From: Panorpa germanica
Taxonomy: Eukaryota; Arthropoda; Insecta; Mecoptera; Panorpidae
Assembly: GCA_963678705.1 (NCBI GenBank)
Contig: OY783205.1
Location: 7,068,001-7,132,000 of the forward strand
Length of the DNA stretch: 64,000 nt
Reading direction: 5' to 3'
In this document: positions 15,574 to 52,528 of the stretch, in pieces
Position numbering within the stretch: the stretch's first letter is position 1
Layout of the letters: every line of letters starts with the position of its first letter
Notes under the pieces: generated by a model
Database searches by the model: none
What the model was told of the DNA's origin: nothing
What the model saw: the letters and a program-made list of their open reading frames with translations, nothing else
Position numbers and translations under genes: made by a program

Positions 15574-15586
15574 GTAGATCTGCAAA

Positions 15587-15615: not shown

Positions 15616-15717
15616 CAATTGTTGTAATGCTATTGCAGAGATTTAAATAATTGAAAATAATTTAACTTAAATAGAGGTTTATTGTAACACAGTTATGTTT
15701 TATGTTTGTATTTTCAG

Positions 15718-25740: not shown

Positions 25741-28700
25741 AATTAATTGATATCAAGTTCAATGCAGCGAATAAAATCTACCCAAAATAAAATTATATCC
25801 AGAAAAGTTAGTGGCTGCTCATTCAGCATGAGGTTGTTGGGCACTAAACATGAAAAGGGGCTCGTTGTCTCAATTGTATTCAGGTACATTTTAATTTCCT
25901 GGAGTCGTTTAAGCTTCATGGAATTCATTAATTATTCACCTAATGGCACACGTATTATAAATGCGCTCTGTATGAACTACAGTCATCTTCGCATTTGTGA
26001 GTTTGGAATTTTATGCAAAACTACCCACATAAGTTGGACCACACAGTTCTGAGGAGGTGAACGCAGCAGGAAGAAAGCCCGTCGAGAAGCAGGGAATGAT
26101 AAAACACGAGCCATTGTAGAATGTAGGTTAATTTAGATGAGATAATTTAGATAATTTAATTGAGATGCCACTAGATTTATAATTGTTAGAGTTATAATTA
26201 AATTTACCTTAATTGAAATAAAGAAGTCCTAACGCAGCCGATAGGACGATCAGGTTGTTCAGGCGAAGAGCTGGGGCCCCTGCAAACAAATTGTGTTTTC
26301 GTTATTAAGAAGACCAAATATGTCAAAAATTGGGTTGTAAACCATATTTGAATTTCTATAAAACTGTGCTACATATTGATAAAGATATATTTTGTAAATA
26401 TACACAATAATTTAATAGATATTTTCAACGGAAACAGTCATTCTTATCACAATGGTAATATTTGTATGTTAATAACTAATACATGAAAAGTCGTATCTGA
26501 CGTCATTATTCTGTCTACTTATTACCGAAAGTGCGAAAGAGACAGTATACTTATTATACAAGGGCTGTTCGGAAGTAACCTCAGCCTGCCTATAAATAAA
26601 AGACCAGCACATATTTTCCAACATAGCCGCCATTTAAATTCTAGTACTTGTTATAGCGTTTCTTCTAATTGCTAATCCTTCTGCATAAAACTAGATCATA
26701 TGCACGGTATCTGGGACCACGGTATCATAGTTTTCGCACAAAGTTTTCTGTAGCCGTTCTGCCACAGTTTCGTTCAAAATAATTCAATCTGTGGATACGA
26801 TTCTTTAAACATATCAAATTTTCATAAAGTGAAATGGCGCGATTAATTTTAAAATGATCAGGCTCATACTCGTACGCTTTGTATTTAATCAAAGAGTAAT
26901 TGAACCAAGTTTTATTAAAATCCTAAATAAAATTAATTTGCATTGATATTTGCATGTTTCAGTAAAAATTTAAAATATCCAAACATAAAAAGTGGTTCAC
27001 AACCCAATTGTGGTTTCGATGGTATTAGCAGGATAATACCTGCTGTGGGATACGCTGATTTGAGTGTAACCAAAGTCAAAGACAAAGACAAATTGTTATT
27101 AGTTTGTAAATAACTGTTAAATATAAATAATATCGTAGATGGTGTCTACGCTTCAATGACGTTGACAGAAGAACAACTTACATGCTGAGTGTAAGAAATG
27201 AAATGATTATAACATTTTGAGAAAACATAACCATTGTTTGTATTTCTTAAAGCGGTACATACCACCTGATGACGTCATAGTAATGGTATTGGTTGGAACA
27301 AACAATTTGTAAATTAATGTGATAGAAAATTAGAAGTTCTATTGTCAGAATCAAACAAATAAAGACACAAATTCTATCAGAAGAACTGTTATATTAACTA
27401 ATGTTTCGAATTAAAATAAGTTCTGCTTTGTGGAGCCGCGTAAATTGCTCTATTGCTACATAACTTACATCCTTTTTGGTAAAATAAGACGGCAATGTCA
27501 TTTCAACGAATCATTTTACGTCAATAAATTAGGGCCCCAATAAATTGTGGACTAATGTCTTATTTCGGTTAAGACATTTGAACTATGGACCATTCCATAG
27601 AATTAATTTTAATCATTTAAATTGGAAACTTTCAATACTCACCATCTGTTGAAAATTAAAACTTAGAATGAATGATACAAAGTTGCTTTGCTGCACTTCA
27701 ACAATTCCACGCTAGGCGGCAGTGAATGGCTCTGAGCGCTACACGTGATAAAGGCTCTTCTGGTTTTGTAGGCAGTGGTCGAATGGTTTGGACAAGTTTT
27801 CATAAAGATACAATTACTAGAACGAGCATTCCATAAATGGAAATTTGACCAAGTGTTGTATTTTGGATTTCGCTTGCTTAACATGGAATTACCCGACTCT
27901 AGATGTTTGGCATCCACAACACAGAGTAGGAAAGAAGAACGTACAAGCTGAAGGAGTAATAAGGGTAACAAGTTAACCTAGTAACAGTAACTGGTACAAG
28001 TGATACTAGTAAGTGCTGAAAATTTACGCCGAGTATAAAGCCAAACAGGCTATTATTAGTTTATACCTGGTATAAATTTATCTGTCGTTCCATGTCATTC
28101 TATCCATTCGATGGATTGGAATGAGGGAACAAAGTTGGTTAACATCTCTCGCGTGGCATATGCTGTGACAAGGAGAGTGCTATTGGTACGAGGTTTTCTT
28201 ATTCTTTAATGGAGATTTATATTAATAAATGGATAACTATTCAAGTTGAACTTCGATATAAACTTACGGTTTGTCTCTCCTTCACCCTTTTCTATAAAAT
28301 AAAATAAAAATTCTTTATTAAAACATTCCGAAAATGCTATTCGTGCAAATAAGAAAATGGTGGTACGAAGAGTTTCAGAGGATAAAGGATAACTCTTAGC
28401 TTATTCTAACTTAAATATCCTGCTTTTAAGAATGGGAGCATATTAGAGTGACCCTTATTTACTCTTGGTGAAGATTTTCTTTGCGATTTTTCCAGTTTAG
28501 TGTGAATACATGAAAAAATATTCCGTGTAAAATTTCAGGTCAATCGGATAACGGCAAAGTGTGCCCTAAGAGCGTTGAAAATCGAATACAGAAAAGTGCT
28601 ATACAAACTTGTTGATCTGTTAAAAATGCATATACGCTTGTCATCTATCACTATTTGTGGAATAGCAAAAAGCTGTAGAGACAAACTACTGAGCTGATAG

Positions 28701-30179
28701 TCAAGATGAGTAGGATATTTAAGGAACGATTGAAAAGAGAATCATCACTGTCTCTCATCACAAACATTTCGCCGTGATTCCACAATTTACAGCTTATTAC
28801 TGCATTATCCATTTGAAATCTCTATGCACTATGTACTCCGTTCCAGTCAGATTCTTCGACAATGTAAGGCTTGTTAAATATAAGTTATATTTAAGCTGAT
28901 GTCAGACGGTTCACTTTTTGTTTATTTCTACCTCTCATTCGATATGAACCGGTCCAGCGATGTGGGACACGTTCATTCGTCTTTATGTGTATCTTTAACG
29001 AGTTTTGTTTAAAGTGTATTCTATTTTATGTAAAATTATGTAAATGTGTGAATTATTCAATCCTTATAAATAATTCCAAAAGGCGCGGCGGATTCTTTTC
29101 GTTCATTAGATGATGTTCTTACATTAAGGCCCCGTCGTCCAGGCAAGCTACTTTGTGCTGCAGTGCAGATCGAAGTAGAGTATCAACATGCATAAAATGT
29201 TTATATGTTTGACAAATAAAATACAGAAATATTCAGACATTTGCGAGTAAATCGTTTGAATGAAATATGTCCAATAACATATAGATGTAATATGGTTTGT
29301 ATTTATATTTTGGTCGGATTATATTATTTCATATAAGACTAATGTTTATTTAAAAGTTGCATTAAATTAACACGTTTTCTAACATTTTTAAATAAAAATA
29401 TATTGGTAGATAGTAAATGTCTGACAAAATTTAACGCATTATTTAGATATTGCCAAAGGAAATAATTTATTATCATCGGTACTAAAATAAACGTGATTTG
29501 AAATAAGACCGACAGTGGTGGAGTAGATGAGGGGCTTAATAATATGTTGTGTTATACGTCTTAAAAGAGTGTTGTAACTTTAGGAAAAAGTAGCTATTGA
29601 CTATAGAAACAAATATAAATTAAACAGGATTACTTACTCGCTGCAAAATACCAAGACAATGAGAAATCAAAAAGGAACAGGCAATAATTAAATTAGCAAT
29701 TAGCTTTCATTTGTATTGGTTTCAAGTTATTTTCCTTAAGATATATTTAAGAATAGTTTCCATGCAAGGAATTAGATCCACGAAGTTATGTAGAAAGACT
29801 CCAGGATTTAGCTATGAGGCTATGAAACTAGCACAATCAGAGAAAACACTAATTTGCTGTGAGTTTGTTTGATTTGGACTTATTTGACTACTTACGCACT
29901 GTGGTACAAATGGATATGTTACGTATCTGATATGTAAATAAGTCACGTGATGGAGGAAAGGAACGTCTGTTGCATGCAACTTCTAATATGATATATTTTG
30001 TTATCAGCTTTGTTATCAAGTAACAAATCAGGCCAACTTTAATTATTATTATCTATTATTTAATTATTGTTCATGTATGTATACTTATACTAATTTATCT
30101 TAATGCATGCTTCAAGGTTTTACATTCTTCCATATAATTATTAATTACAGTTCATGATTTCTAAATTAAACTTAAAAAC
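25741..30179. other. Long stretch without recognised genes (mariner scrap at 26,559)
   Basis: Besides the mariner-like scrap described separately, I see no domain on either strand. A possible LTR-like end lies at about 26,110-26,280 (AATAAAGAAGTCCTAACGC, then GC-richer DNA), but no partner was found. An open frame of about 100 codons at 27,663-27,971 (-) has no motif. Confidence 0.4.
26559..26840 (-). pseudogene. Mariner-type transposon relic, C-terminal end
   Basis: The plus strand starts ACAAGGGCTGTTCGGAAGTA, typical of mariner terminal inverted repeats. Read on the minus strand, adjacent pieces in shifting frames resemble the transposase C-terminus (KRYNKY, then NLNGGYVGKYV, compare .RYDKC.N..G.YVEK). 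The other terminal repeat was not found. Heavily degraded. Confidence 0.4.
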
Positions 30180-30670
30180 TATTTATATCTCTTCTTTTTC
30201 TCCTCGTGTCACTTTCTCTGTCCTCTGCTTCTCTACTTCACCATTCTAACCTACATGTTTCTCTCCCTTCTTCCATTCTCGCTTCCGCCACTCACCCCCT
30301 TCGTTGCATCCCCTCATTAATTCCGCTATCTTCTTTTCTCTCTTTATTTTGTTCTCACATGATTCTTTAATGTGCCACAACGTTTTCATTCCAGCACATT
30401 TTGTATATCCTTTCTTCTCTATTTTCCATTCTCCCCTACTCTACAATTATCCTTCTCTTTGCACTTCTGCCACTATTCCATTCCTCTTATAGTCCTTCTC
30501 TTCCTTCTTTTCGTCTCCCCCATTCCACACTCTTTCCTAATCTGTTTGTGTATCTTCATTAAGATCTCACATTCTGCCTTACTTATTTCTTTTTCGAATC
30601 TTCCTGCTCTTCTCGTTCCTTCAATTCTTATTTTGTCTCTTTTCACTTCTTCCATTACCATATACATACA
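30180..30670 (-). pseudogene. R1/LOA-like ORF2 C-terminal fragment
   Basis: The open part (30,667-30,473) reads MYMVMEEVKRDKIRIEGTRR and continues FEKEISKAECEILMKI. This is the same region as MVMEELKRDKIRIKTGE in the copies at 12,185 and 42,985. Beyond a frameshift, LWHIKESCE and a degraded finger follow. It is from a diverged subfamily. The 3' end is not clear. Confidence 0.65.
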
Positions 30671-30689
30671 TTACATATACAACATAACC

Positions 30690-30960
30690 AATGCAGTGCA
30701 TTAACATGAATGCGAATCGGTGCACAGGATATGAGACATGGCAGAAGAGACGCTGCAGCAATACGAAGAGAGTGGATGAAGAAAGTAGAAAGCAGAATGG
30801 GGAAATGTTACGAGGAAAAGAAAAGAACAGAAAGAAGAAAAGAAGTAGAACTTTTGAATTTATTTTAATTTTATAAATGATTATGTAAATTAATTTGGTA
30901 GTAGAACTTATTAATAATAATATATTGTAACGCCAATAATAAAATACATACAAGTTAGCT
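30690..30960 (+). pseudogene. R1/LOA-like ORF2 extreme C-terminus and 3' UTR
   Basis: In one plus frame (about 30,745-30,875) the sequence reads IRREWMKKVESRMGKCYEEK and ends VELLNLF, like the C-terminal tail of the family. A short 3' UTR follows with AATATATTGTAACGCC and an AATAATAAAATA end. It points away from the minus-strand fragment immediately to the left. Confidence 0.45.
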
Positions 30961-33130
30961 TTTCTGTTACTGTCACTTACTTCCAATCATTATTGTATTG
31001 TATAGGTATAGCTTCAATTTTTAAACAGAACATGAACAGTGAGTTTCACACCAAGGATACGTGTTACCTGAACAAACTAAACTATAAATAATTATTAAAA
31101 ATAAACATAGTAAACAGTAAAGTAATAACAGACGAGTAATAGAGTCCAGTAAGTATACTACGTAAATGATTAGTTCAGTTATGTAATACTTACGATCTGT
31201 TTTGTACATTGTTGTGTTAAATTTGTGCACTCTTAATTAAACAAAGATTCCTGCAGATTGGTTTGAAACTTACTTCCTGCATTTTGAACAAACAATTCAG
31301 AGTTTAGTCTGAGGACATAGTATGAAATCATGGATTTAACAACGTTAGACGTATTTCTTTAAAACGATCCCTACACGTTGATATGCCTGCAAGGATAACT
31401 GAAACATTATATCCAGGTTTAATTTAAAAAATGGAGAAACTTATGTCTAGAGAAAATTATAATATTGTCATGCATTAGTTTTAAAATATATAACAAGAAT
31501 CTGTTTTACTGCACGTGTTATAAAAAGAATGTCAGTTCCTGTTGATACATCGCCCCCACTTCCCCCCCAAGACACTGCAGAAACAAGTGCATAAATTAAT
31601 AAAGGCTTTGTTTAAATCGTTTAAATGGCAGCCACCAATAGATGATGATGATACAAGATGGTGTTTTCATAACGTGTAGATTTTCAGCCCATGTTTATAA
31701 CCGGTAGGACCCTTTAAGGAAGTAGGACTTCGAGTAATAGTATTACTGTTAGTATCATTATCTTTAAAGTTTGTTATTTTGTGTCTGCAGTGTCTTTGTT
31801 GTTGTCTGTCCTAGATTTACGGGTACAGTTGACGAAACCAAGAATATCAGTAAGTAAACGAATACACACCATCTGTTGCAGCAATGGAAAGTCGTTCGAT
31901 GGCAAAACGTAATTTGTAAAAATAAACAAGGTATGATTAGAACGCACTCCTGTAAGATAGCGCCTCTCAGAGGAAGTAAGAGAAGCTGATGCATTTGAGG
32001 CCCCGCAAAATCAAAGTAACCAGTTCAATTTATTGAGTTGAAGGTTTCTACGCGAGAGTTCTAGCCACCTTTCCAGTTCTCTCTAAGAGGCACTGCTCAA
32101 TCATTATTTAAATGATTAACAATTATCAGATTTATTTGATTTAAATAAAATAAGATTAAACTTGCCTATGCCTAAATACAAAACGACGTTAGAATGAAAA
32201 ACGTTAAATAAAGTGAAAACACACACACACAAACAAACGAACTGTAACGTCGTGTCAGTGTCTAGTTGAAGTTGTCATACTCACAAACTACGCACAACGA
32301 TGGAAATTATTTTATCGCTTTGTTTTTGTGAGAGATTTAATTTGTCGCACATTGAGCAAGTGAAATTTAAAATCCTAAATATTTCCATTTCATTTTCTGT
32401 GCCAACCCGTGGATCACTCTATCAATAACCCTAAAACAATGTGGACAAGAATCGTACAAGATTGGAACAGATTGAAACAAATCGTTGAAGATTCGTATAA
32501 GAGTCGTTAAAGATATAGATAAGTTGTGTGTAGAGAATCTTTATTCAAATCTAAGTGATTGCATTAACTTCTTCAGGGCTGACACTTATTTAGTGTAAGG
32601 AAATTGATTAAATGTTTTTTTAATAAGCCACTAATTTTGACAAAATCCATTTCTTTCAGAAATGTGTTCTATTAGGATAAATACACAGTACAGATAAATC
32701 TCATAAAACAAGATGATTGGTACGGAAAATTGGCAGGTTGAATAGGTGGCAACACTAAGCCAGAAAACATTTGCAGTAACTAATTCGTCAATAATATATG
32801 TTGGGATTTGGTCTGCAGAGTTGAATAAAAGGGACATTTTAACAAGTATATATTTAATAATACTAATTAGCAAAAAATTAGCATTGATTTAAAATAACGA
32901 TTGACATTCAACAGTGCTTACAATGTTGTCCACATTTCTAGAACCCATTAAGGTATATAAACTTATCGTACGAATACATAATTTAAAAGGATTTTTAACG
33001 CTCTACAACTATTATTTAAATATTTTTTAATAAAATAAAGGTCTTTTTAAATTTTTTTTTTAAATATAACTTCATAATTGCGAATTTGTTTTTGTTGACG
33101 GACATATACCTTTTTGAAATTTGAATTTCT
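30961..33130. other. No gene recognised
   Basis: AT-rich, with a short (CA)n run at about 32,219. Several short open frames occur without motifs. Two minus-strand spots (31,193 and 31,273) show CAG-N3-GTAAGT, discussed among the rejected items. Confidence 0.4.
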
Positions 33131-34879: not shown

Positions 34880-37480
34880 TAAAAACTAGGTTTAGTAAAC
34901 TTACAGTTTGCTGTTCTACTTTCTGTGCAGGTTTAAAATATTGATACAAACATGAAAGTAAAACAAATGAAAAGCAATTAAATAAATGTTCTCTAAAACT
35001 AAAGCTATCATCAGATGATTAGCCAATAAATATAAAATATCTGCCAATAAAGTTAAGGTTCACTTTACAACACATTTAAATATAAGTTATATTTAACTTT
35101 GGGATGTGTTGGGTAAAAGAGATGGCCCTCCTTATACCTAATTAACTTTGCTCGTAATACTAATTAGGAAAAATTAGGTTTAGTCAACTTACTTTTTGCA
35201 GCTGTGCGTCCTTAGAAGTTATGAAATATTGATATAAACATGAAAGTAAAACAGATAAAACGCAATTAGATAAATGTTCTACAAAACTAAAACTATCATT
35301 AAATGCTCACTAAATAAATATAAAATTAGATTTACTTTTAGGTTTAATACTAATTAGTAAAAATTAGGTTTAATAAACTTACTAGTTGTGGGACCTGGGT
35401 ACGTTAAAACAGATAAAAAGCAAATTAATAATGTTCTTCGAAACTGAATCTATCAAATGTTAACCAGATAAATATAAAACTAGATTTACTTTTAGGTTTA
35501 ATACTAATATGTAAAAATTAGGTTTAGCAAACTTACTAGTTGTGGAACCTGCGTACGTTAAAACAGATAAAAAGCAAATTATTGATATTCTACAAAACTG
35601 AAACTATCATTAAATGCTCATTAAATAAATATAAAATTAGATTTACTTTTAGGTTTAATACTACTTAGTAAAAATTAGGTTTAGTAAACTTACTAGTTGT
35701 AAGACCTGCGTACGTTAAAACAGATAAAAAGCAAATTAATGATTTTCTACGAAACTGAAACTATCAATAAATGCTCACTAAATAAATATAAAACTAGATT
35801 TACTTTTAGGTTTAATACTAATTAGTAAAAATTAGGTTTAATAACCTTACTAGTTGTGGGACCTGCGTACGTTAAAACAGATAAAAAGCAAATTAATGTT
35901 TTTCTACGAAACTATCATTAAATGCTCACCAAATAAATATAAAATTAGATTTACTTTTAGGTTTAATACTAATTAATAAAAATTAGGTTTAATAAACTTA
36001 CTAGTTGTGGGACCTGCGTACGTTAAAACAGATAAAAAACAAATTAATGATATTCTACGAAACTGAATCTATCAAATGCTCACCAAATAAATATAAAATT
36101 AGATTTACTTCTAGGTTTAATACTAATTAATAAAAATTAGGTTTAATAAACTTACTAGTTGTGGGACCTGCGTACGTTAAAACAGATAAAAAGCAAATTA
36201 ATGATTTTCTACGAAACTATCATTAAATGCTCACCAAATAAATATAAAATTAGATTTACTTTTAGGTTTAATACTAATTAGTAGAAATTAGGTTTAGTAA
36301 ACTTACTAGTTGTGTCATCTGCGTACGTTTAGAATATTGATGCAAACATGAAAGGAAAACAAATTAGAATCAAGCAGATGAATGTTCTGCAAAAGCAAAG
36401 CCATGTTTAAATGATTAGCCAGTAAATATAAAATTATCTGCCAATAAGGTCAGGTTTACTATTCAATACATTTAAATATAACATCACAGTTATATTTAAT
36501 TTGGGAATTGTTGGGTAGAAGGGATGACCCACCCTATTCTACAATATTTACTTTGCTTGTCATATTAATAATTTAAAATTAGGTTTAGTAAACTTACTGT
36601 TTTCCGCTGTACTTTCTGCGCAGATTTAGAATATTGATAAAAGCATGAATGTAGAACAAATAAAAAGCAAATAAACAAATATTCTGTAAACCTGAAGCTA
36701 TCATCAAATGACTAGCCAATAAATATAAAATTATTTGCCAATAAAGTTAAAGTTTGCTTTCAATCACATTTAAATATAAGTTATATTTAAGTTTGGGATA
36801 AGTTGGGTGAAAGAGATGGCCTACCTTGTATCTAATTAACTTTACTCGTAATACTAATGAGGAAAAATAAGGTATAGTGAACTTACTTTTCGCAGCTGTG
36901 CGACCTGAGCAGTTATGAAATATTGATACAAGTATGAAAGTAAAACAGAGAAAAAACAAATAAATGAATGTTCTGCGAAACTGAAGATGTTATTAAATGG
37001 TTAGCAAATAAATATAAAATTAGATTTACTTTTAGGTTTAATACTAACTAGTAAAAATTAGGTTTAGTAAACTTGCTAGTTGTGTGACCTGCGTTTTGAC
37101 ATTGATAAAAAAAATTTAAAAAAAACAAATTAGAATCAATCAGATGAATGTTCTACAACACAAAAGCCATGATTCAATGAATAGCCAGTAAATATAAAAA
37201 TATCTGTCAATAAGGTATAAGGTTTACTTTCCAACACATTTAAATATAATATCAAAGTTATATTTAACTTTGGGAATTGTTGGTAGAAGGGATGACCCAC
37301 CCTATACATTATTTATTTTGCTTGTCATAATAATTATTAAAAATTAGGTTTAGTAAACTTACTTTTTCCACCTGGCCAACCAGTGTAGATTTAGAATATT
37401 GATATAAGATAAAAGTAAAACATAAAAATCAATAAGATGAATGTTCTACGAAACCTCTGCTAAGTAGCCATTAATATAAA
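34880..37480 (-). repeat. 13-unit tandem array carrying splice-flanked microexon-like blocks
   Basis: Units are about 155 bp (inner) or 190-290 bp (outer). On the minus strand each has ...AG | block | GTAAGT. Blocks: 34,905-34,922, 35,193-35,210, 35,383-35,394, 35,537-35,548, 35,694-35,705, 35,851-35,862, 36,002-36,013, 36,156-36,167, 36,307-36,318, 36,598-36,615, 36,887-36,904, 37,077-37,088 and 37,363-37,371 (or to 37,380 without AG). Lengths are 18, 18, seven of 12, then 18, 18, 12 and 9. Donors are GTAAGT except GTAAGG (35,851) and GCAAGT (37,077). In phase 0 and in coordinate order the blocks read KVEQQT, DAQLQK, VPQL, VPQL, VLQL, VPQL, VPQL, VPQL, MTQL, KVQRKT, VAQLRK, VTQL, VEK. Spacing and sequence show a higher-order order A-B-C(x6)-D-A-B-D-A. 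The array is certain. Its being exonic is inferred. Confidence 0.9.
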
Positions 37481-37549
37481 ACCGCCGTATTAGAAAACTA
37501 GCGACTGACTAGCTATTGTATTTTCCAACACTTCCAAGCAGAAGTAATT

Positions 37550-38740
37550 ACCCGATTTTGATAGTACTATATAAAAAAAAAAATATAATATACAAATAGC
37601 AAATTTTTATGATTATGATTAGTATATAATCCCATTTTTTTACTTTGGCGACATTAAGCAGCAATACACTGATTTCTCTGCACATTTTAATGGTGGATAT
37701 TTCCTTGATAATTCGGATTTTAAGTATGAGGGGATGAATTTTTTTTTTCGCATAGGAGCCTGGTGTTTTGCCATGATATTCGTCTTCCATTGTGAGGAGC
37801 ACACATTTACACTCTTCAAAACATTTTTTAGAGGAGTGGCTTCTTCGGCGGCTTCTCTTATAACTTTATTTAAGAGATTTACTTGATTCAGGCCCTCTTC
37901 TGATTTGAGCGAGATGTTGCAATTAAGCTTAATATTTAAGTTTTGGAATAAACTACAGTCTGTCTACTTGTTGGATGCTGTTAAGAGGGGTACTTTATAC
38001 ATTGCATAACTAATATGTGACAATGACTGGTGAGTGGTCAGATGAGAGATGCAGACTTGACTCAGCTTTGAGGTTATTAGGGGAAACTCCTTTTACTACG
38101 CAAAAGTCGATTAGATCAGGGATTTTAACCATATTCGTGGGCCAGTACGTCGGTTCACCACTAGAAAAGATAGTAAAACTAAGTGTTTTGACGCATTTGT
38201 ATAGTTCATTTCCCTTATGATTTGTAAGTCTTGATCCTCGTGGGCTTAGTACGTTGTAGTATGAGTAGAATTGTTCTGACTTTATGTTGTGTTTCGGTGG
38301 ACAGTATACTGCGGAGACAGTTAGATGTCTGTTCAGTTCCTTTATAACAATGCTTGTTGCTTGCAGGAAGTCTTTGCTATATTCATTAGTTTTATGATGT
38401 TGAATGAAAGTCTCAATGATATGATGGCTGTTCTTCCATGCGCTTTATTGTCCGGATGTTTTGTGTCACATGTTCTGTAGTTTGGAATTTTCATGTAGCT
38501 TTTAGTGGTAAAGTGCGTTTCAGAAAGAAGCATAATGCCAATGTTTTGGTTTAGGAGGAAGGAATTTACTTCATGGTTGTGTTTCCCGAGATCATTGGCG
38601 TTCCAGAGTACGATTCTCAGGCACGTGAAGAGATTGGCATATGTGATATTAAAGTTGCGATTAGATTGAGCATTGTACTCATTTGTTCCACAAAACTTTT
38701 TATTTGAAAAAGCACAAAACCCTACTATTCCTGAAGACAT
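37550..38740 (-). pseudogene. Jockey ORF2 relic: endonuclease and linker to RT
   Basis: From 38,740 leftward: LRIVLWNANDLGKHNHEVNS (domain opening, with the N that binds metal) and IGIMLLSETHFTTKSYMKIP (catalytic Glu). In the following frames come LTVSAVYCPPKHNIKSEQ, IDFCVVKGVSPNNLKAESS and HLSSDHSPVI, which holds the catalytic SDH. The linker (NISLKSEEGLNQVNLLNKVI, later PSYLKSELSRK) reaches about 37,620. The GD.NAKH motif is degraded or lost between the frames. The RT is missing: the DNA further left is the microexon-like array. Frameshifts are frequent. Confidence 0.75.
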
Positions 38741-38799
38741 TACTCATTTTTTGAAACATCAACGAGATTACAGCACGAAAACAAGAACTGCAAGAATCC

Positions 38800-40140
38800 G
38801 CCATTAAAGTACATATTAGTAAACGAAACTGATTTAAAACCAATTCAAGCGTCACTGTAGTAGGGTATATCTGCTACAGAAAAGGAGGAGGGACCGCCAT
38901 TCTAATTAGAATAGGGACCTATCATTACCTCTAATGAAAGGCTATAGGATTCGTATGCTAAATTCGATCTTCAGCTGTACTAGCTAAATGATGAAATACA
39001 AGCAAGAAACAAACTGCAAAGTATCGAGAATATGTAACTGGTTCCTTAGAATCTGGAACTAATAACCGTTTAGGAATCCAACACCACCTATCAGGAACTC
39101 TCGCAGCATATCATTGATCTGATTTCTAAGAAATATAACATCCCACTAAATCTATAACTAAACATAATACAAAGCATTATAAAAGAACATATAGAAAAAT
39201 ACCAAAGCGACAAATAGAAATGAAAAACTAAAGAACAAACTACTGAGGACAACTGTTCACCAAATGATCTACACCTGCAGATGGCTGCAAAAGTTTTCGT
39301 AAACCAACTCCTTAAATTTTTCTCTCCAAATCCATTGGCAGCAGATTATTAGGAAGAAAATGATATAATTGACGAAGAAGTCTCCAACCTGCTAGCTACC
39401 ATAAGTCAAATTAATCTTCATTACGTAATTTATCGGACAAGTCACTACCTAGAAAAATGGAAAACCTTTAAAGTTATTATGATTGCTAAGCCACAAAATG
39501 GCCAAACTAATTCAGAAAATTGTCGACCAACCAGGCCAGTGAGGGACGCCCAAGTGAAGAAAACCATATATGACATTCTCAATTTGGAACAAGACACTAC
39601 TAACAGATTGATTGACTGGAGCAATGTTCTCAGACCTAGAAAAAGCTTTCGATAAGGTCTGACACACAGGAATCATATACTAACTAAGCGAAACAAGACT
39701 ACCAGACATATGTATGCACAATCGTATCTTAAAGACAGGAAATTCATAAAAAGGACCATTTTTGAACTGCGTGAAATCAGATATAAGAATCAATAATAGA
39801 ACCTCTAGAACCTATTTAATATTTAAGTCAACGACCTACCAAAAGTAAAAGTGGCAGAAATGACATAATACGCCCTAATCAGAATTCTCAACCTATGCTA
39901 GACCATGTGCTGAAGAACAGCAGAAACATGTACAATCAAACTGGAAGGTCAAAAGCTGAAAAGCAGTGCTAAAGGAATAGGGCAATAATCATCTACCTCA
40001 TAAAGCTCACCACAAACTTCTTCGACCCATCAACATTCTTGACGAAGACACTGCATAGACCAAAACGCTGAAAAAGTAACACTCCGTCAGAGGAAGACGC
40101 CAACGGCAGCAGTGAAAAAACATTTTTAAATTTTATAATT
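38800..40140 (+). pseudogene. Jockey ORF2 relic, endonuclease start to RT, heavily mutated
   Basis: Opposite in orientation to the neighbouring Jockey relic. Plus-strand pieces in order: GYICYRKGGGTAILIRIGTY (endonuclease, 38,870), then after a deletion YLEKWKTFKVIMIAKPQNGQ (39,450, RT motif 1), a region of NLEQDTTNRLIDW, KKLSIRSDTQES at the FDKVWH position, SYLKDRKFI and NDLPKVKVAEM (39,840). The YADD box is not readable. The many stops show age. It starts about 60 bp from the start of the minus-strand copy, so the two are head to head. Confidence 0.6.
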
Positions 40141-41100
40141 GCTTAGGACGAGTAAGAGTGCTTTAATCGAAACTTCCAGCTAGCATAGGCAATAAACGAC
40201 TATCTCTCAATAAACGCCAGTGCTCCGAAAATCCAGGGGTCTCATGCACATATAAAAGTACAGCGCATAAACAATAGCAGTAGAAACCTAGAGACACACT
40301 GTCACACTGTTAAAATCTATTTTGTGATGAAATTTTACACAAATTGGTGTATTACGCTAACAATGTACGGCCGCGATGATATCTCATAAGAACTCACCCA
40401 GAATTTTAAATTCGAATCAAAGGGTGAGGGAATATTACAAGTTATGTAAAGTGAGCACATTTCTTGGAGACGATAAGAACTTAAATGTGCGTATGTGTAT
40501 TTGCTTACATACATATTACATATATTTAAGAGTTTGCGTAACAAACGTTGGTATTTACTTTACATTTTATTTTTTTTAAGGTTACAATATAAACATATTG
40601 TATTATTATCATCGTTATTATTTTATTAAATAAATGTATTAAACAAATTATGTGATTCTTTATCATCCTGACAAGAAACTAAGATATTGCATAGTGCAAT
40701 ATTAATTGAATTGACATTTGACCTAAATTAAATAAGAGTACCTTGTTTCCACATCAGATTAGCGGATTGAGTATTGTTTTTTGCATATAAGAGAAATGAC
40801 AAAGGCAAGGAGAGATAGCTGCCGAGTCCCATCTGTCTCCTTCTAAACGAAAAGCTGCTGCTAGTTTGGCTGATTACCGGTGAGGTAGGGGCAAGCAGAC
40901 GCTATAGTTAAACTAAAAATCACAGTACTCGGCTAAAAAAAAACACAGAGCACACTCGGCAGCTCTTTGCCTTTATCGCAGTATACACCCTCTTGTCTAC
41001 TCTATTCTTATACCTCTATGACAGCAACATAGACCTCACATAACATGTTAGCCATCAGTTTATACAAATGATAGAAATAAAAAACAGGCTTTGTGTTTGC
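40141..41100. repeat. No gene; contains an imperfect inverted repeat at 40,802-40,973
   Basis: AAGGCAAGGAGAGATAGCTG (starting 40,802) is mirrored by CAGCTCTTTGCCTT ending 40,973, with GCCGAGT/ACTCGGC next to it. The total of about 170 bp resembles a small foldback element. The rest of the stretch shows no domain. Confidence 0.4.
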
Positions 41101-41117
41101 TATAAAATTTTTGCAAT

Positions 41118-41175
41118 ATGACTTGGTTTATGACCCACTTCCGGCTTGACGTCGATTTCTCGGACACCTTGTATA
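41118..41175 (+). repeat. Second copy of the short dispersed repeat at 1,039
   Basis: The same order of ATGACTTGG, ATGACCCACTTCCGGCTTGA and GACACCTTGTATA as in the first copy. Probably a transposon end. Confidence 0.55.
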
Positions 41176-41629
41176 ATCATTTCTTTAAGCCTTCAAACTG
41201 GCATTAACTTTTAAAAGATATATTCATTAACTAAACCCTTTGTCCAAAGCACGTTCAAATAATGTTTATATTAGATCTAGATAGATTAGTATTGAACAAG
41301 GACATTTTAAAACTATATAAACCTATGAAAATAGCGAGTCTGGGCAGTCTGTCAGTCAGTCGCCTTTGATGCACGAGACATGAAGTTACTAAAGAAATAT
41401 TAACTGTAAGTTGTCAATTATCCAGTAAAGTAAAGAAATGTATTAAATAGTTTAATGTTCAATAAAGAATAATAAGTGTTAATGTATACATTGTTTTATT
41501 TTGTTAGTGATAATTAAAGTGACAAGTTCGTGTAGCAAATGGCAACAGCTACAGAGTACAAAAAGTAAGTAAAAAAGTAAACATAATAAGTACATATATA
41601 TAATATTATTAGATGAATGAGCAAGTCCT

Positions 41630-42065
41630 GAAAGTATATAAAACATCCACAATAAGCTCGGTCATCCAGACTCAAGGTGACAGTTCACCATAATGATAAC
41701 AACTTGCTGCGACATAGCATAGCTGAGGAATTCTAGGACGGAATTCAGACACTTCTAGGAATAGTTCAAATGCAATGGACCACTGTTTGGGACCTCTAAG
41801 AGAGATGGATTACGCATAACACTTGTGACTTAATAAGATTGTGGACCTGATGAAGAGGTATCAGGAATGGATGACAACGACACGTGTGGGTCTAGGCTTC
41901 TGGATTCGTCTCGGATATAAACACTTTTACTAATGGCTTCTGACAGCGACGGTTGATTTGACTACATTTATAATACTACATATTTTATTCGGATTGATTA
42001 TTAATAAATATATTCTTGTTGAATTGATTGTAATGTTTTAATTAAACAACCCTAACATATCAGAA
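41630..42065 (+). repeat. Putative LTR with adjacent primer-binding-like site
   Basis: A TATA-like AAGTATATAAAACATC (about 41,633) is followed by a possible start region, an AATAAATATATT signal (about 42,002), and an end ATTAAACAACCCTAACA. Then ATATCAGAAGTGGGATAATA starts at 42,057, the type of sequence that follows LTRs as a binding site. The other LTR was not identified. The downstream gag/pol relics at 43,740-45,185 may belong to it. Confidence 0.35.
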
Positions 42066-42079
42066 GTGGGATAATACAT

Positions 42080-43051
42080 TATTATTAATTGTTTATTGTT
42101 CGCCTTTCGGCTTTACAATCTACATTCTTAAATACATTTCATATACTTCAACTTACAATTAAATTTTACATTATTCTAAACCTTTTTATTTCCAAAAGTA
42201 CTTTCTGCTTCTTCTTCTCTTGACCCTCTTCATTCATTTTCCCTAGTCTTCCTTCTGTACTGGTCTATTCCCTAGTCTATTTTTCTGGGCTGAAGTTTAA
42301 CTGTTTCCTCGCTACTTCTTTCTTTCTCCTGCTTCCTGTTCCTTGTGTTACCCAGCCACCAGCTTATTTATTCTCCTGTTTTTCCTTTCCTTCTTACTAT
42401 TTCCGCCATCCACCTCTTTCCTTCACTGCCTCCCTTTAATAGCTGGCCAATATTCCTTTCGCTCGCTACTTTTTCCTTACACTCAAACTTAATGTGCTCC
42501 AGTGTTTCGTCCTCCGCTCCACACATTCTACACTTTCTTTCCTCACTCTTTTCCCAGTATCTGTTTCCTTTTTCCTCATTTCCCAATCTAAACCTTGCTG
42601 TTCTTCTTATGTATTTTATGTCTTTTTCTATAAGGTACTGAGGTACATTATTTTCCCATAACCTCTTATATCTTTTATTGTAGTTACTTTTTTCTATTTT
42701 TCCCATTCTCTCCTGCTGTTGTGTCTCCTTATCCCTTCTCCTTAGCTCCTCTTCCACACTTGCGCCACCTTCTCTTCTCCTCTCTGCCTCCTTGATCGCC
42801 ATTCCATTCCTTTCAAAGTACTCCTTTCTCTTTTTTGGACCTCCTCCTCCCCCATTCTTTATGTTGTCCTCTCCTATTTTCTTTAAAATTTTGCTTTTTG
42901 CTCTGTTCAATTTCTCCTCGTATTTTACTGCTCTTTCCCCTGTTTTAATTCGTATCTTATCTCTTTTTAGCTCCTCCATCACCATGTATCCTGGCGTGCA
43001 CCTGTCCAGCCCTAGTACCCATTTCATATATCTCACCTGTATTCTTTATAT
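42080..43051 (-). mobile_element. 5'-truncated R1/LOA-like retrotransposon with 14-bp target duplication
   Basis: The target duplication GTGGGATAATACAT is at 42,066-42,079 and 43,052-43,065. From 43,036 leftward there are 222 open codons: MVMEELKRDKIRIKTGERAV, a charged region, YKRLWENNVPQYLIEKDIKY, FRLGNEEKGN and the finger KCRMCGAEDETLEHIKFEC, then KGGSEGKRWMAEIVRRKGK. The finger (CX2C....H....C) is intact. The 3' UTR with TTGTAAAGCCGAAAGGCGAA lies at about 42,122-42,102 and the A/T-rich tail at 42,080-42,100. Being open and bounded by a perfect duplication, this is one of the younger insertions here. Confidence 0.9.
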
Positions 43052-43739
43052 GTGGGATAATACATATTATCCCACATATTATCTTATTTTCTAGACCACG
43101 CGCAAAGTGCAAAAATAGTGAAATATAAAAAAAAGTATTTTTTCTTTGTTTGTCTGGTAACAAGGGCGTGACAAATATATAATTTGTGTGTGAGCAGCGG
43201 CATGGCTAATTCACTGACATGGTTATAAATACATGTGGATAATAAAGTGAATTTTTGAGTAAAAAATCTTATTTTTGTGTTCATTAAGTATGCAGAGTAA
43301 TACGTATTGTGCATGAGATAATGAGTAATGTGAGCGGTGAAAGCGTTGTAAAGCTTTAATTGGAGTGACATTGTTGGAGGGGAATAATAAGGACAATGTT
43401 AAGTTGAGGTTAATAAGTAAAACCTGTAAAAGTTGATATCAGTATTTGATAGCGGAGAGATAATTATTGTTGGAGAGAACTTCACGGATGATTACTTAAT
43501 GATATTAAAATGTGATGAATAGTTTGAGGATATGTGATAATAGAAATTAAAAGGAAATTGGTGTAAACATTAAGGTGTGATGAAAAAGTTAGAGAGCAAG
43601 TGATAGTACAATTTACGCATTTGAGTATGGTGAAAAGTTTAAGAACAAGTTAGGTGCAGTTTAAGAGAACATTACCATAGAACAAATTATGTAGAGACGC
43701 TTGTTTATATAAGATATCTTGTGAACGACACCTTGCAGA

Positions 43740-44000
43740 CTAGCACATGAATAAGTTAGAAAGGCTTAAGCGGTTAAAATTCGATATGAGTGAGGAGTGT
43801 ATGGCTGAGTATTTAGAGAGATGTCAGATCGGCGAGAGGGTCAACAGCGAATTGTACGTGTACAAGAGTTCACATGGTCGTCTGCCGTCACGACACAATT
43901 TAAAGAATAATCGACGTGATGGAAAAGATCGGAAAGTTTGTGACAACTATGGAGATACGTCATATTTTATAGTAGAGCGCCCCAATACCTTTACATAAAC
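43740..44000 (+). pseudogene. Gypsy-type gag fragment with decayed zinc knuckle
   Basis: The 83-codon frame has a helical start (LERLKRLKFDMSEECMAEYL) and a basic stretch (NLKNNRRDGKDRK), then KVCDNYGDTSYFIVERPN. The last resembles a knuckle C..CG...H....C.N in which the second Cys, the His and the last Cys are now Tyr, Tyr and Arg. Position just upstream of Gypsy pol supports a gag origin. The start is arbitrary. Confidence 0.45.
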
Positions 44001-44329
44001 TATTAAGTTAAATGCGTTAAGTTATTAAGGGAATGTAAATAAATTGTGTTGCTCTTATGCTGAGTAATATAGGAAAAACCCAGGCTGCAAAATTATAAAA
44101 TTAAATGTATAACAGATGAACCGGTAATACGTAGAACGTAGTAGGCTACTTGTAGTTAAGCGGTAAATAAGGTGATAACGCTGCAAGATAATAATATTAA
44201 AAGATATTTACATTCATCTGATGCAAGTACCGTGTGTGAATAGACTTTGGCAGATTAAATGCAATAATAATAAAATAGGGAATAATAATAATGATTTTAT
44301 ATAATAACAATAAATTGGGAAATAAAATA

Positions 44330-45185
44330 TATTTTACGGAGCTGGATCTAGCTTTAGGAGTACCAGTGAATGAATTTTGAGCATGCCAATGAGAATTTCC
44401 ATTGCGCTAGTGTTTTTCAAAGACTTGTAAATAGACTTGAATAAGATTTGTCTTAGTGCTATGAAAAGATATAATAGCTTTTCTATACATCGATGACATT
44501 ATAGGTGTACTTCCGTCTAAATCAGTTGCTGAATGTTTTGAGCGGTTAAGGCAAGTGTTACGAGAAAATAAATCAACATCAGATTAATAATTCTTTCGTT
44601 CATTTTTAAAACGAAAATTGACTATCTGGGACGTGAAATTAGTGCTGAGAGAGTGCGACCGAGAAAAAGGAAGATTGAAGGAGCGCAAAAATGTTAAAGC
44701 CAAAAACTGTAAAAGGTGTAAAACAATTCTTAGGACTTACTGGTTATTTTCGTAAATTTGTGTATAAATAATAAACTGGCAACTGACAAAGAAATCATCA
44801 GTTGAGGACAGGCGCAACAAGAAGAATTTGATACGTTAAAAACAGTATTGACTACGAGAGTATATATTGAGTATATTTGATCTTACACAAAACAGAACTA
44901 CATACAGACGCTAGATCATTAGGGTTATGAGTTATGTTACTTCAATTAATAGAAAAGGAGAAGAAACTAGTTGCATATTTAGCAAGCAAGCAGCAGTGGA
45001 TCATCGTCATTGTTGATTCTTACGAATAGAGCAGTGAACAGTGTATTTACTAGAGTTGAAATTTAAGTTTGTAACTAACGCTTGTAAGAGACAGGCTGGA
45101 ACACCTTGAGGACTACATTTACAAAGAAGAGTTTATTACCGAGAATAGGGCCGTGGTGGCCGGAGATTCAAGATTTTGATTTTGA
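44330..45185 (+). pseudogene. Gypsy pol relic: RT and RNase H
   Basis: The YIDD catalytic box is intact in LYIDDIIGVLPSKSVAECF (about 44,485), followed by ERLRQVLREN. Next, across frames, come DYLGREISAERVRPRKRKIE and LKPKTVKGVKQFLGLTGYF with FRKF, the standard RT-connection sequence. RNase H pieces follow (QQEEFDTLKTVLTTRV, then a stop-ridden stretch), ending with WWPEIQDFDFEI, the ARW.L.LQ.YDFEI position. Integrase is absent: the pol sequence ends near 45,185, where TA repeats and then an LTR follow. Confidence 0.75.
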
Positions 45186-45243
45186 GATTGATTTGGTTGG
45201 TTATATCAGGTTATATATATATATAGATATATATATATATATA

Positions 45244-46010
45244 TGTGGGGTTATTTTTAATTAGGTGTAATTTTAAGTTAGATTATATTTAGTTTTAAGT
45301 AATAGTAAGATAACTGTAAACCTAGGTGTAAATCTTTGCTGAGACAAGCAAGTGAACGCAGGGGCAGAACGCCAAAGCGAACTGATCAGGACGCCGTTCA
45401 CTAGCTAGCTGTAAAGATGACGACATCAGGGCGTTAGCTAAAACATACGTACGAGGTGCCGTGTGCAAAAAGCAGTCTGAAGCAAAATGGCGATTGAACA
45501 ATGCTAGTTGCATTTAGTTGTTATTTTTGTGTGTTAGAATATAATGATGGTTATACGTGTACAGAGTTTTATAATGCAAATGGCGATAGAAATGTATAAA
45601 GAGTATATATGGTCGTTATTGAGTGTTTTATAATTAAGTTAACTTTATTACGGTGTAATAGTTGTTATTTTGATCATTGTTTTTGTTAGAGTTAGGCAGC
45701 GATATTAATATTTTAGTACTAAGGTGTATTATTATTGAAATTATTGTGCTGATAACTATAGACAATTACAACTGCGTAGTGTGTACTGAGACGTAAAAAC
45801 ATTGTGAAAAGACATTTTATTCTAGTTGTATTTTGTTGTGAATATAATTAAGATTGATTAACTTTATTTAGATATAAGTTTATGACTTTGATAAGTGATT
45901 AAACAAACTATTAATAACCAAATTAAGTGTTTACTCATTTTAAAAGAAACTATATTGTTGTATTGTACATCAACCTTAGGCTGATGTTAATTGTAACTTA
46001 TAATTGTGGG
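45244..46010 (+). repeat. Gypsy LTR (copy B)
   Basis: Starts TGTGGGGTTATTTTTAA directly after a TA run and ends near AAAGAAACTATATTGTTGTA (about 45,945), followed by a short stretch and another TA run at 46,022. It aligns with the reverse complement of copy C through blocks such as GTTAGAGTTA(G/T)GCAGC and AAGAAACTATATTGTT. A possible start region follows GAGACAAGCAAGTGAACGCA. Confidence 0.65.
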
Positions 46011-46018
46011 AAAATACC

Positions 46019-46021
<3 letters not shown>

Positions 46022-46071
<50 letters not shown>
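46022..46071. repeat. (TA)n microsatellite, 50 bp
   Basis: Uninterrupted TA repeats between LTR copy B and the array of binding-site-like repeats. Confidence 0.95.
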
Positions 46072-46074
<3 letters not shown>

Positions 46075-46258
46075 GACTTTTTATCTACATTAGTAGTTCT
46101 GAATCTAATACCATCCTGGTTTAGACTCCACTTTGCAGGTTACTATCTACAACCACCTGTTGAGATCCTAATTTGTAGTATAGAACTATTCAATCCCATA
46201 TGAGCCTCCAATTTGTAGGTAATTTCTACAACTATCCGTTGAGACGATCAATTTGCAG
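46075..46258 (-). repeat. Tandem array of primer-binding-site-like units, copy 2
   Basis: Read on the minus strand: CTGCAAATTGATCGTCTCAA, CTACAAATTGGAGGCTCATA, a unit with AATTAGGATCTCAACAGG, and CTGCAAAGTGGAGTCTAAAC, at about 40-bp spacing. It repeats the array at 46,633-46,804 and lies after the truncated gag, so it may be the end of a second LTR. Confidence 0.7.
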
Positions 46259-46400
46259 TTCTATTCTGTTCACCGACTCGGCTATTATACGAGTTCATTC
46301 TTGATAATAATTCAGCACGATTCCCACGCTGACTAAGTCCAACGAAGCTAAGTCCCTGTCGTAATTCTGCCAATGACAAATTGTTTAATTCTTCTGTCAT
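46259..46400 (-). pseudogene. Gypsy gag N-terminus with SAP-like domain
   Basis: MTEELNNLSLAELRQGLSFV followed by GLSQRGNRAELLSRMNSY matches the SAP pattern (L....LR..L...GL...G.KAELI.RL). SAP-like domains occur at the N-terminus of gag in some insect Gypsy elements and bind DNA. The frame stops after about 47 residues where the second repeat array begins, so the rest of gag is deleted. The start Met fits its place about 210 bp past the primer-binding site. Confidence 0.55.
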
Positions 46401-46612
46401 TGTTATAATTTTCACTACTAACAGATTGAAGTGCAATTACTTTAATGAGCAAACTGTACACTATGTTTTCCTCTTGATTCCGCTGGTCAACTGTTCTGGT
46501 TCTAAGGCTAAGAATAATCTTAACTGAGTATACTATATTCCTTAATTCCGGTTCGAGCGTTCTGGTTCTAAGGTTAAGTATATTTTTGACTAAATATACT
46601 TGGTTTTGCCTT

Positions 46613-47711
46613 ATCCCGGTTGAGAGCCCCCATTTGTAGTTTTTGAATCTAACACCATCCCGGTTCAGACTCCAATTTGCAGGTTAGAATCTACAACCAC
46701 CTGTTGAGATCCTAATTTGTGATTCAGAACTATTCAATCCCATATGAGCCTCCAATTTGTAGGTTACTTTCCACAACTATCCGTTGAGACGATCAATTTG
46801 CAGTATAACATAACAATATAGTTTCTTTTATACGAGCAAACACATGATTTGAATATTGATAGTTCATTTAATATTTACACAAAATTATACAATTACATCT
46901 GAATAAAGCGAATTAATCGTAATTAAATTCACTAAGAAAATAACACTTGATTAAAATACAATACTTAGATTTACAGTTCTTTCAATGTTTTGCATGTTAC
47001 CACGTAATACGCAATTCCGATTGTTCATAGTTATCAAACACAATGATTTTATAATGATAATACAACCTAGTATTTAACATTACATTTGCTGCATAACTCT
47101 AACATATGTTACAACTAATAACAATGTTCACAATTATTAAATTATATTAACACCCGTTAATAATATTTAAACTAACAAAATAACAACATCGCACAACCTA
47201 TGTACATCTATTGTCGCTATTTTTAGAATCAACTCTCGAATGTTCTATACTTTACGATAATCACATATTATAACTAATAACAATGATTACTGTTTTTCAA
47301 TCTAGTCCATTACTACACGATAATCAAATATTATAACTAATAACATTGATCACTGTTTTAAATGATATTAACACCCGTTAATATTACTTAAATTCACTAA
47401 AATAACGACACTATACAAACTTATGTATTCTCATCGCCATTTTTCTAACAACTTCACTGCAACTGTTGCTTGTACCAACATGTGCCCGTAATGACTCGTC
47501 AGCATACACTAGAGCGAGTGTCTGTGTTTGAGAGTTTCGGGGTTCACACACCTCATCAGATGTTATGGCAAGCATCTGGTGTCGAGAGTACATTATAATA
47601 TTACCCTAATATTATTCAAGTTCTTAACCTAATTTACAGGTTACTTTATATTTCTATTTCTTAAAACTAATTATATTTACACTTAAAACTAATCTTAAAA
47701 AATAATCCCAC
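46613..47711 (-). mobile_element. Gypsy LTR (copy C), primer-binding site and unit array
   Basis: On the minus strand the LTR starts TGTGGGATTATTTTTTAAG at 47,711. AAAGAAACTATATTGTTATG lies near 46,820, then five units of about 40 bp (46,804-46,633). The last ends in TGGGGGCTCTCAACCGGGAT (46,632-46,613), a tRNA-Pro-type primer-binding site. Internal direct repeats are visible: ATTGTTATTAGTTATAATAT occurs at least twice within the LTR. Gag with a SAP-like start follows. Confidence 0.65.
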
Positions 47712-47732
47712 ATATATATATATATATATATA

Positions 47733-47772
<40 letters not shown>
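47712..47772. repeat. (TA)n microsatellite at the left edge of the palindrome
   Basis: TA repeats with one AAAA interruption separate LTR copy C from the Helitron CTAG end. Confidence 0.95.
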
Positions 47773-47773
<1 letters not shown>

Positions 47774-48056
47774 TAGCTGACCCGGCGAACTTCGTACCGC
47801 CTAACAGTCAATGAATATCGTGTTACCTTTTAGGCTTTGATGAACGTAATACAATGATACAAAATAATATTTATTAATATAGATAGAAACATAAAAGTAT
47901 TTTATTATGATGAATGATAATGAAAACATACAGAATGAGAATAAAAATTAAAAAAATAATAATAATTAAGTAATTCAAACTCATGTCAGAAAAAAATGAT
48001 TGAAAACTATGTTGTGCAGATTGGAATACACTCGGATTAATTCATTAATGGGATTT

Positions 48057-49022
48057 TCATTCAAGCACCTTGTGGTAAACGACATTCTTTGTTTTTTGGT
48101 CAGGCGCAAGAACAAATAAAGCGGATGGTTTGCTGACACGTGAGCATGCCACGTACAATTGACCATGAGAAAAACATGCATTTTCTAGATTGAGGCCACA
48201 AATAGTCAAGGATTGGCCCTGTGATTTGTTGATCGTCATGGCGAAGGCAAGACGAATCGGGAATTGAATTCGTTTAAACTCAAATGGCATATCCGTTGGG
48301 ATCATCGGAATCCTTGGAATAAGAACTTCCTCATCTTTAAATTTTCCTTTAAGTATCGACGCGTGAATCACATTGCTCATCAGTTTTTTTTATCACAAAC
48401 CGCGTTCCATTGCACAGTTTTGGTTGGTTTAAATTTCTAAGCATGATGACTACCGAGCCAACCTTAAGTTTTAAATTGTACGGTGGTAAACCAGGCACAT
48501 CCAAGGAGTTTAAAAATTCACTTGGATAATTAGTGGCTTCTTCTTCGTTTGTTACACAGTCGATAGATTTGAATGAATACAGAGTACCTACGATTTGATT
48601 TTGAATTATAAAATTGAGGTCATCTACATCTTTATTTTTAGCGGCCAAAATTGCTCGCTCACTTAACCATTTAGTATTTTTGTGGTTAGCAATGATATCC
48701 GGGAATACTTTGTTGATAAGCTCGTCTTTTGATGATACAAAATTGCAAACATTTGGAGGAAATAAAATCAAACCGCTCGATTTGTCAACAGGAACACAGC
48801 CATTACCGATAGTCAGCAATTGCTTCGATAAATCATCAGCAGATAGATCGTTCAACAATGCAACTCTCATATTTACAGACAGTTGAAGTTTCTTTACATA
48901 TCGCCACAGATTTGATGCTTTGAGGCAAGCGTTTATTTCGTCGGCAGCAGTAGATCTTGGAATGACTGGTAGTGTTTGTCGGAAATCGCCAGATAATAAA
49001 ATCATTGCACCACCAAAACATC
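48057..49022 (-). pseudogene. Helitron helicase C-terminal part, left arm
   Basis: Mirror of the right-arm block at 52,529-53,494. PIF1-type motifs are AMILLSGDFRQTLPVIPRST, the NMR-containing LQLSVNMRVALLND, VGSVVIMLRNLNQPKLCNGT, LAFAMTINKSQGQSL and GQLYVACSRVSKP. Walker A and the Rep domain are missing. A frameshift in the A-run near 48,390 separates the last 107 codons. Such helicases unwind DNA during rolling-circle transposition, but this copy cannot make a complete one. Confidence 0.85.
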
Positions 49023-49032
49023 TCGAGACATT

Positions 49033-50741: not shown

Positions 50742-50744
<3 letters not shown>

Positions 50745-50806
<62 letters not shown>
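50745..50806. repeat. (TA)n core at the centre of the palindrome, 62 bp
   Basis: A pure alternating TA tract lies between the two Helitron 5' ends. Its own symmetry makes it a likely cruciform site. Confidence 0.97.
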
Positions 50807-50809
<3 letters not shown>

Positions 50810-52518: not shown

Positions 52519-52528
52519 AATGTCTCGA

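Follow-up and report, generated by a model that had tools for sequence, protein, structure and literature searches.

The window analysed here, a stretch of 64,000 nucleotides, probably carries on its minus strand a microexon-rich coding gene, whose symmetric phase-1 exons of 9-24 nt occur in tandem-duplicated clusters and would encode a disordered, Thr/Ser-rich chain. The gene, presumably that of an arthropod and probably of an insect, is predicted to span at least the interval from 59.6 to 28.3 kb and to consist largely of such symmetric microexons separated by phase-1 introns. With every block beginning at codon position 2, a block could be added or skipped without a change of frame. Two clusters, namely 13 units at 34.9-37.4 kb and three homologous 12-nt units with one 18-nt block at 56.7-59.6 kb, would have arisen by tandem duplication of exon plus intron. 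Once spliced and translated, the blocks are expected to yield a hydrophilic, disordered, Thr/Ser-rich chain with elements such as S-PTT, RTAAK, STAEN, NPE, GST and STT. Given this composition, copy number and splicing choice, with alternative use of the blocks, would set the length of a linker or stalk and its density of O-glycosylation or phosphorylation. Frame-preserving microexons of a gene encoded right to left had been proposed in the first-pass annotation, and this is likely to be correct, as unrelated blocks outside the array keep the same length rule and register.

If this explanation is right, the locus would make it possible to study how a repeat protein may grow by copying exon-intron modules instead of coding repeats. 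Exons of at most 12 nt strain exon definition and are often missed by annotation pipelines, and many tandem 12- and 18-nt cassettes would allow asking how such exons are recognised. It would also bear on the frequency with which genes rich in microexons evolved in lineages other than schistosomes and aphids.

The 13-unit tandem array

On the minus strand, 34905..37371 contains 13 tandem units, each composed of an AG, a block and a donor. Block length is 9 nt in one unit, 12 nt in eight and 18 nt in four, and the donor is GTAAGT in 11 units, GTAAGG in one and GCAAGT in one; all units described in the first-pass annotation were recovered, with the same donor counts. The acceptor is CAG in 12 units and AAG in the remaining one, and 7/13 acceptors have an acceptor score below 0. 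An AG, a length divisible by three and a GT or GC donor are kept in 13/13 units, which bears out within the array the earlier statement that all block lengths are multiples of three. In minus-strand order, with the first intron base in brackets, the blocks occupy 37371-37363 (37362; the 9-nt unit), 37088-37077 (37076), 36904-36887 (36886), 36615-36598 (36597), 36318-36307 (36306), 36167-36156 (36155), 36013-36002 (36001), 35862-35851 (35850), 35705-35694 (35693), 35548-35537 (35536), 35394-35383 (35382), 35210-35193 (35192) and 34922-34905 (34904), with implied introns of 139-279 nt.

Alignment distinguishes three types of block, an 18-nt K-type, an 18-nt V-type and a 12-nt C-type, the last differing from the V-type by 6 nt in length. 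The 9-nt unit aligns as one of the K-type 18-nt units, with CTG in place of the outer CAG and an inner AG lying 9 nt in, and hence its block is 9 nt long only if the inner AG is used. Its earlier description as a 9-nt block therefore applies to the inner AG, while by descent it is an 18-nt unit with the outer acceptor lost. Two length differences are visible in the array, both divisible by three. Self-comparison revealed nested duplications, with 34873-35426 matching 36566-37116 at 85%, 36178-36670 matching 36941-37432 at 83%, larger duplicated segments at 83-91% and neighbouring C units at about 90%. Introns of the 18-nt type contain a short near-palindrome (TTAAATATAAC ... GTTATATTTAA region) at 36770-36791 and 35076-35096 on the minus strand, and a 22-base stretch of it recurs at 28874-28895. 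A search for Dscam-like docking, in which one unit was compared with 26.0-34.8 and 37.5-45.0 kb, gave no complementary stretch of at least 12 nt, and for this unit complementary matches were fewer than same-sense matches.

Microexon candidates outside the array

The pattern extends beyond the coordinates given for the array, with further minus-strand candidates at 56.7-59.6 and 27.2-32.3 kb. The upstream cluster comprises a 12-nt candidate ATAATCCCGAAG at 59590..59601 (donor GTAAGT; acceptor flank like that of 58158), an 18-nt candidate AAGGTGACGCAAACGATA at 59267..59284 (donor GTAAGT; found by eye and missed by the GTAAGT and hydrophilic-exon scans), a 12-nt candidate ACGGCAGCACAG at 58147..58158 (donor GTAGGT) and its 12-nt tandem homologue TCAGCACCACAG at 56677..56688 (donor GTAGGT). 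These four blocks were first spotted by eye on reading 55.8-64 kb and were tested afterwards. Between 58158 and 56688, 3/12 positions differ in the block, 1/25 in the acceptor flank and 1/16 in the donor flank. The acceptor flanks of 59601 and 58158 are identical at 47/57 positions (score 60, the best of 500 shuffles reaching 12), and despite this similarity the two blocks differ at 8/12 positions. On the other side of the array, the GTAAGT scan brought up a 24-nt candidate AAAAGGGTGAAGGAGAGACAAACC at 28268..28291 on the minus strand, with a GTAAGT donor and an acceptor score of 4.5.

GTAAGT occurs 32 times on the minus strand and 18 times on the plus strand. When a polypyrimidine-type AG at most 60 nt before it is required, the minus strand yields 24 candidates, among them 9 rows from the array and some in transposon frames, and 20 of the 24 are divisible by three, as against 3 of 11 on the plus strand. 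With a GTRAGT donor and an acceptor score of at least 0, cut-offs chosen once the pattern was known, candidates of 3-30 nt outside the array comprise 8 divisible by three (5 of them 3-nt sites) versus 1 not on the minus strand, and 1 of each on the plus strand. A broader exon scan (18 minus rows, 8 plus rows) gave no convincing larger exon. The two clusters lie about 19 kb apart, several transposon remnants being found between them, and their common strand, lengths and register suggest that both belong to one gene.

Divergence of blocks, introns and splice flanks

Divergence was counted in eight chosen unit pairs, with 25 nt taken as the acceptor flank and the first 16 intron bases as the donor flank. 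Mismatches amount to 24/114 in blocks, 145/1108 in the outer intron, 30/200 in the acceptor flank, of which 17 come from the pair 37076/36306 compared ungapped across an indel, and 8/128 in the donor flank. The safe statement is that donor flanks are the slowest-diverging part and that nothing points to blocks changing more slowly than introns. For block versus intron, p=0.023 over the 8 pairs, p=0.42 without unit 37362 and p=0.0007 when 59601/58158 is added to all 8 pairs, and for donor versus intron, p=0.023 over the 8 pairs and 0.094 without unit 37362; the array alone without this unit gives p=0.49 for blocks and p=0.24 for donors, all these values being optimistic because the pairs share ancestry with their neighbours. 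Faster divergence of blocks than of introns is thus partly supported, leaning largely on two comparisons, those with units 37362 and 59601. Of the earlier contrast between variable blocks and constant donors, the slowness of the donor flanks stands, and the faster-than-intron part depends largely on units 37362 and 59601. The distant 18-nt pair singled out earlier (donors 34904 and 36597) differs at 5/18 block, 4/25 acceptor-flank and 0/16 donor-flank positions, close to what had been claimed. Constancy of block length as against intron gaps was dropped as evidence, the blocks having been compared ungapped and paired by type.

Codon register and predicted peptide

When the 18 blocks are joined in order, phase 0, read from the first base, is open with no stop, and phase 1, in which the first base is codon position 2, is open except for one TAA at the junction 34922/28291. 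The remaining register is full of stops, with one in 8/8 of the 12-nt array blocks. The junction TAA means that something lies between these blocks, that one block is skipped or that the register is wrong; the one-codon candidate CGA at 29640 would abolish it, as would most codons, GAA not being among them.

Register was tested on seven blocks, namely 59601, 59284, 58158, 56688, one V-type, one K-type and the 24-mer. Base use by position modulo 3 gave a chi-square of 27.4, a value reached by 2/20,000 within-block shuffles, by 18/20,000 without the two array blocks and by 5/20,000 with 58158 dropped. On rotating the blocks against each other, 0.0009 of 20,000 draws were as good, which is about the floor of this test (3/2,187). 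The seven blocks have one register in common, and 8/9 of their T's fall on one position modulo 3. In phase 1, purines occupy the first codon position in 29/31 cases and pyrimidines the third in 16/31, and T is found at the second in 1/38; in phase 0 the third base is a pyrimidine in 3/38 and never T, and the first is a purine in 26/38. Judged by this base use, phase 1 is probably the register used, ahead of phase 0. Purines in first position and the near absence of T in second position would give a hydrophilic chain, and the phase-1 peptide reads NPE-E-GDAND-N-GST-V-STT ... S-PTT-S-PTT ... RTAAK-K-SRTAN, KGEGETN. Most likely, then, the phase-1 blocks encode a hydrophilic Thr/Ser/Asn/Gly-rich chain with S-PTT repeats. 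The peptides quoted in the first-pass annotation (VPQL, KVEQQT and others) take the first base of a block as codon position 1 and are probably in the wrong register. The hydrophilic-exon scan gave 14 minus rows (8 being the array) and 1 plus row in phase 1, 6 and 0 in phase 0, and 12 and 1 in phase 2, and its preference for the minus strand in every register supports the strand and is of no help on the register.

One-codon sites

Nine tentative 3-nt exon candidates with an AG-NNN-donor pattern lie on the minus strand within 27182..32287: TTT at 32287, GAA at 31276, ATC at 31196, TGC at 29898, CGA at 29640, CTT at 27947 (donor GTACGT), ATG at 27645, GAT at 27471 and CAT at 27184. GGG at 30298 was omitted, since it sits in what looks like a LINE remnant, and also left out were GTG before GTATGT at 27262 and, outside this region, 59916, 63151 and 63320. 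Outside the array, 7 minus-strand matches to AG-NNN-GTAAGT (6 at 27.2-31.3 kb and 1 at 63.1 kb) compare with one on the plus strand, with 0.52 expected and a maximum of 3 among 60 Markov-3 sequences. For AG-NNN-GTRAGT with the preceding 11 bases free of any further AG, the counts are 10 minus and 1 plus (expected 0.73, maximum 3), and with an acceptor score of at least 0 added, 5 minus and 0 plus (expected 0.15, maximum 1); the 3-nt class and the thresholds were picked after seeing the data. The five best-scoring sites (32287, 29898, 29640, 27645 and 27184) all fall inside 5.1 kb. Mutual comparison of 12 one-codon sites gave only 13- and 21-nt matches, apart from overlap of neighbouring flanks, and comparison with the array gave short matches of 11-39 nt. 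The sites at 27.2-32.3 kb may be exons, decoy splice sites or stepping stones, and any assignment is tentative.

Genomic setting and gene ends

The window is AT-rich, with a GC content of about 32%, and a tRNA search and an Rfam search of it returned no match. Reading frames of transposon type are many and include LINE, BEL/Pao, mariner and helicase frames of Helitron type, some of these names being our own reading of the Pfam families. Among 10 ORFs searched with Pfam, 7 matched transposon-type families (one under the curated cut-off) and 3 had no match. One LINE frame had 7 protein matches, the two with a printed name being ants at 43 and 45% identity, and for a second LINE-type, gag-like ORF none of 2,414 protein candidates was scored. 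The transposons thus suggest an arthropod, probably an insect, as the source. The stretch between the two clusters, 37543..54000 (no strand assigned), contains at least several transposon remnants, such as LINE pieces and Helitron-like frames. Helitron-type frames form an inverted pair there, 49406-50224 (minus) and 51327-52145 (plus), with 48060-49044 (minus) and 52507-53491 (plus); their translations look identical, they lie about 1.1 kb apart at the centre, and they represent a palindromic insertion or an assembly artefact. On the plus strand, an open frame without Pfam match at 15310-15624, with an acceptor candidate at 15718, resembles an exon from a conventional gene running opposite to the microexons.

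No secure first or last coding exon was found within the window, and the 5' end may lie beyond it. As a tentative last coding exon, a 72-nt stretch at 26208..26279 on the minus strand was noticed by eye (50% GC, acceptor score -2.3, hence under the acceptor cut-off of the last-exon scan, which gave 28 rows). In phase 1 it would encode a short hydrophobic tail ending ...LRLNNLIVLSAALGLLYFN stop; a possible donor GTAAAT lies one base past the stop, it is open in one other register too, and it could possibly be an internal 72-nt exon instead. A speculative first coding exon ATGGACAATAATGCAAACGCAAACA (MDNNANAN) at 62269..62293 on the minus strand, with donor GTGAGT, ends after codon position 1 and fits the register and composition; it has no signal peptide, and measured from the nearest upstream AG it is 32 nt, which is not divisible by three. 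Scans of the window for a signal-peptide first exon gave three weak candidates in one and eight rows, some of them the same sites, in another, none convincing; the best, 44798, sits in a region of apparent transposon remnants. A protein search with the joined 83-residue peptide returned 6 word-sharing candidates and none at E<=10, a weak null, because exons of this kind frequently escape annotation and the way the blocks were joined was a guess. Two DNA patterns had no exact match in two collections, which is likewise weak because these hold bacterial, archaeal and viral sequence.

Alternative explanations

The array might be a decayed or never-functional tandem repeat, intronic or intergenic, in which AG and GT are kept by recent ancestry only, and several observations would suit this: the units are related by duplication at 83-91% between larger segments, one lacks its outer acceptor, one has a GC donor and one GTAAGG, the window is rich in transposons, and the array without unit 37362 lacks a significant rate contrast. 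Such a repeat is nevertheless distinctly unlikely, as donor flanks diverge less than the outer intron over the 8 pairs (p=0.023), and the pattern recurs outside the array in blocks of separate origin that agree with it in strand and register. It is more improbable still that the blocks are spliced but non-coding, as microexons of an untranslated leader or a lncRNA duplicated in a satellite-like array. The failure of the joined peptide to find a homologue and of the window to offer a secure first or last coding exon would agree with this, whereas 18/18 listed blocks are divisible by three, the five outside the array having been picked partly for this, and unrelated blocks have a codon register in common.

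The same gene might instead be read in phase 0, with VPQL/VTQL, KVEQQT and KRVKERQT, and its chain would then be rich in Gln, Leu, Val and Lys instead of Thr and Ser. Besides being open through all 18 joined blocks, this register lets KRVKERQT align with KVEQQT and KVQRKT if two additional residues are allowed, and makes the 72-nt stretch at 26279 begin with GPQL; it is nonetheless unlikely, since so few third-base pyrimidines and no T would be odd for an AT-rich genome, and its first base is less often a purine than that of phase 1. Within the preferred explanation, the phase-1 microexon gene, the one-codon sites allow two versions. It is quite conceivable that they are decoy or stepping-stone splice sites in a long intron, with the 9-24-nt blocks as the real exons, a variant compatible with that explanation: the one-codon bases show no common register by eye, and GAA at 31276 would produce TGA after a T-ending block in the phase-1 register. 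Against it, AG and GT directly adjoin in a stepping-stone site of the usual description, whereas at these sites three bases separate them, so that one codon would be retained in the message. It is rather doubtful that a single gene consists almost wholly of 3-24-nt exons, up to nine of them one-codon, and encodes a Thr/Ser stalk with a repeat number variable both in the genome and by splicing, the duplication of microexon modules then being the exon-level counterpart of a tandem-repeat mucin.

Comparison with known microexon systems

The exons of Dscam are of ordinary size and mutually exclusive. Dscam has a tandem alternative exon array (PMC1397879) and is similar to the locus described here in having exons tandemly duplicated inside one gene; in the flanks of the one unit compared here there is no complementary stretch of at least 12 nt. 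One-codon exons are known in insects from homothorax micro-exon 8 and troponin T (PMC7392893, PMC8042270), where the cited passages describe one 3-bp exon per gene, in contrast to the run of candidates within 5 kb found here. Among the open-access matches listed, none described an arthropod gene with 12- and 18-nt coding exons arrayed in tandem.

Schistosome MEGs have short symmetric exons, given as up to 36 bp (PMC8293314) or as 3 or 6 to 81 bp (PMC10526429), their lengths for the most part divisible by three and long introns separating them (PMC8293314, PMC10526429). Their products are reported to be disordered and fast-evolving (PMC10399815, PMC4350168), they have an N-terminal signal peptide (PMC10526429), and they are said to be limited to schistosomes (PMC8293314). 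The present locus resembles them in that 18/18 listed blocks are 9-24 nt long and divisible by three, if these are indeed exons and make up most of the coding sequence, and differs in its arthropod-looking genome, in that no signal peptide was found and in what would be one gene with a 13-unit tandem array. Aphid bicycle genes have numerous tiny internal exons, nearly all of which begin at codon position 2, and megacycle has more than 100 microexons and a repeating protein structure; many of these genes show CYC motifs and N-terminal signal sequences, some homologues having no clear motifs (PMC9168663). Expression in salivary glands is a further trait of bicycle genes. A start at codon position 2 is also the register favoured here by base use. 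Unlike in bicycle genes, the 18 phase-1 block translations contain no C or Y, in what is only the readable part of the protein, the blocks are 3-24 nt long and no signal sequence occurs in that part. In the readable part, no homologue, signal peptide or CYC motif was found that would place the locus in either of the two families named in the first-pass annotation. By analogy of exon size, symmetry and starting position, schistosome MEGs and aphid bicycle genes would still be the nearest known kinds.
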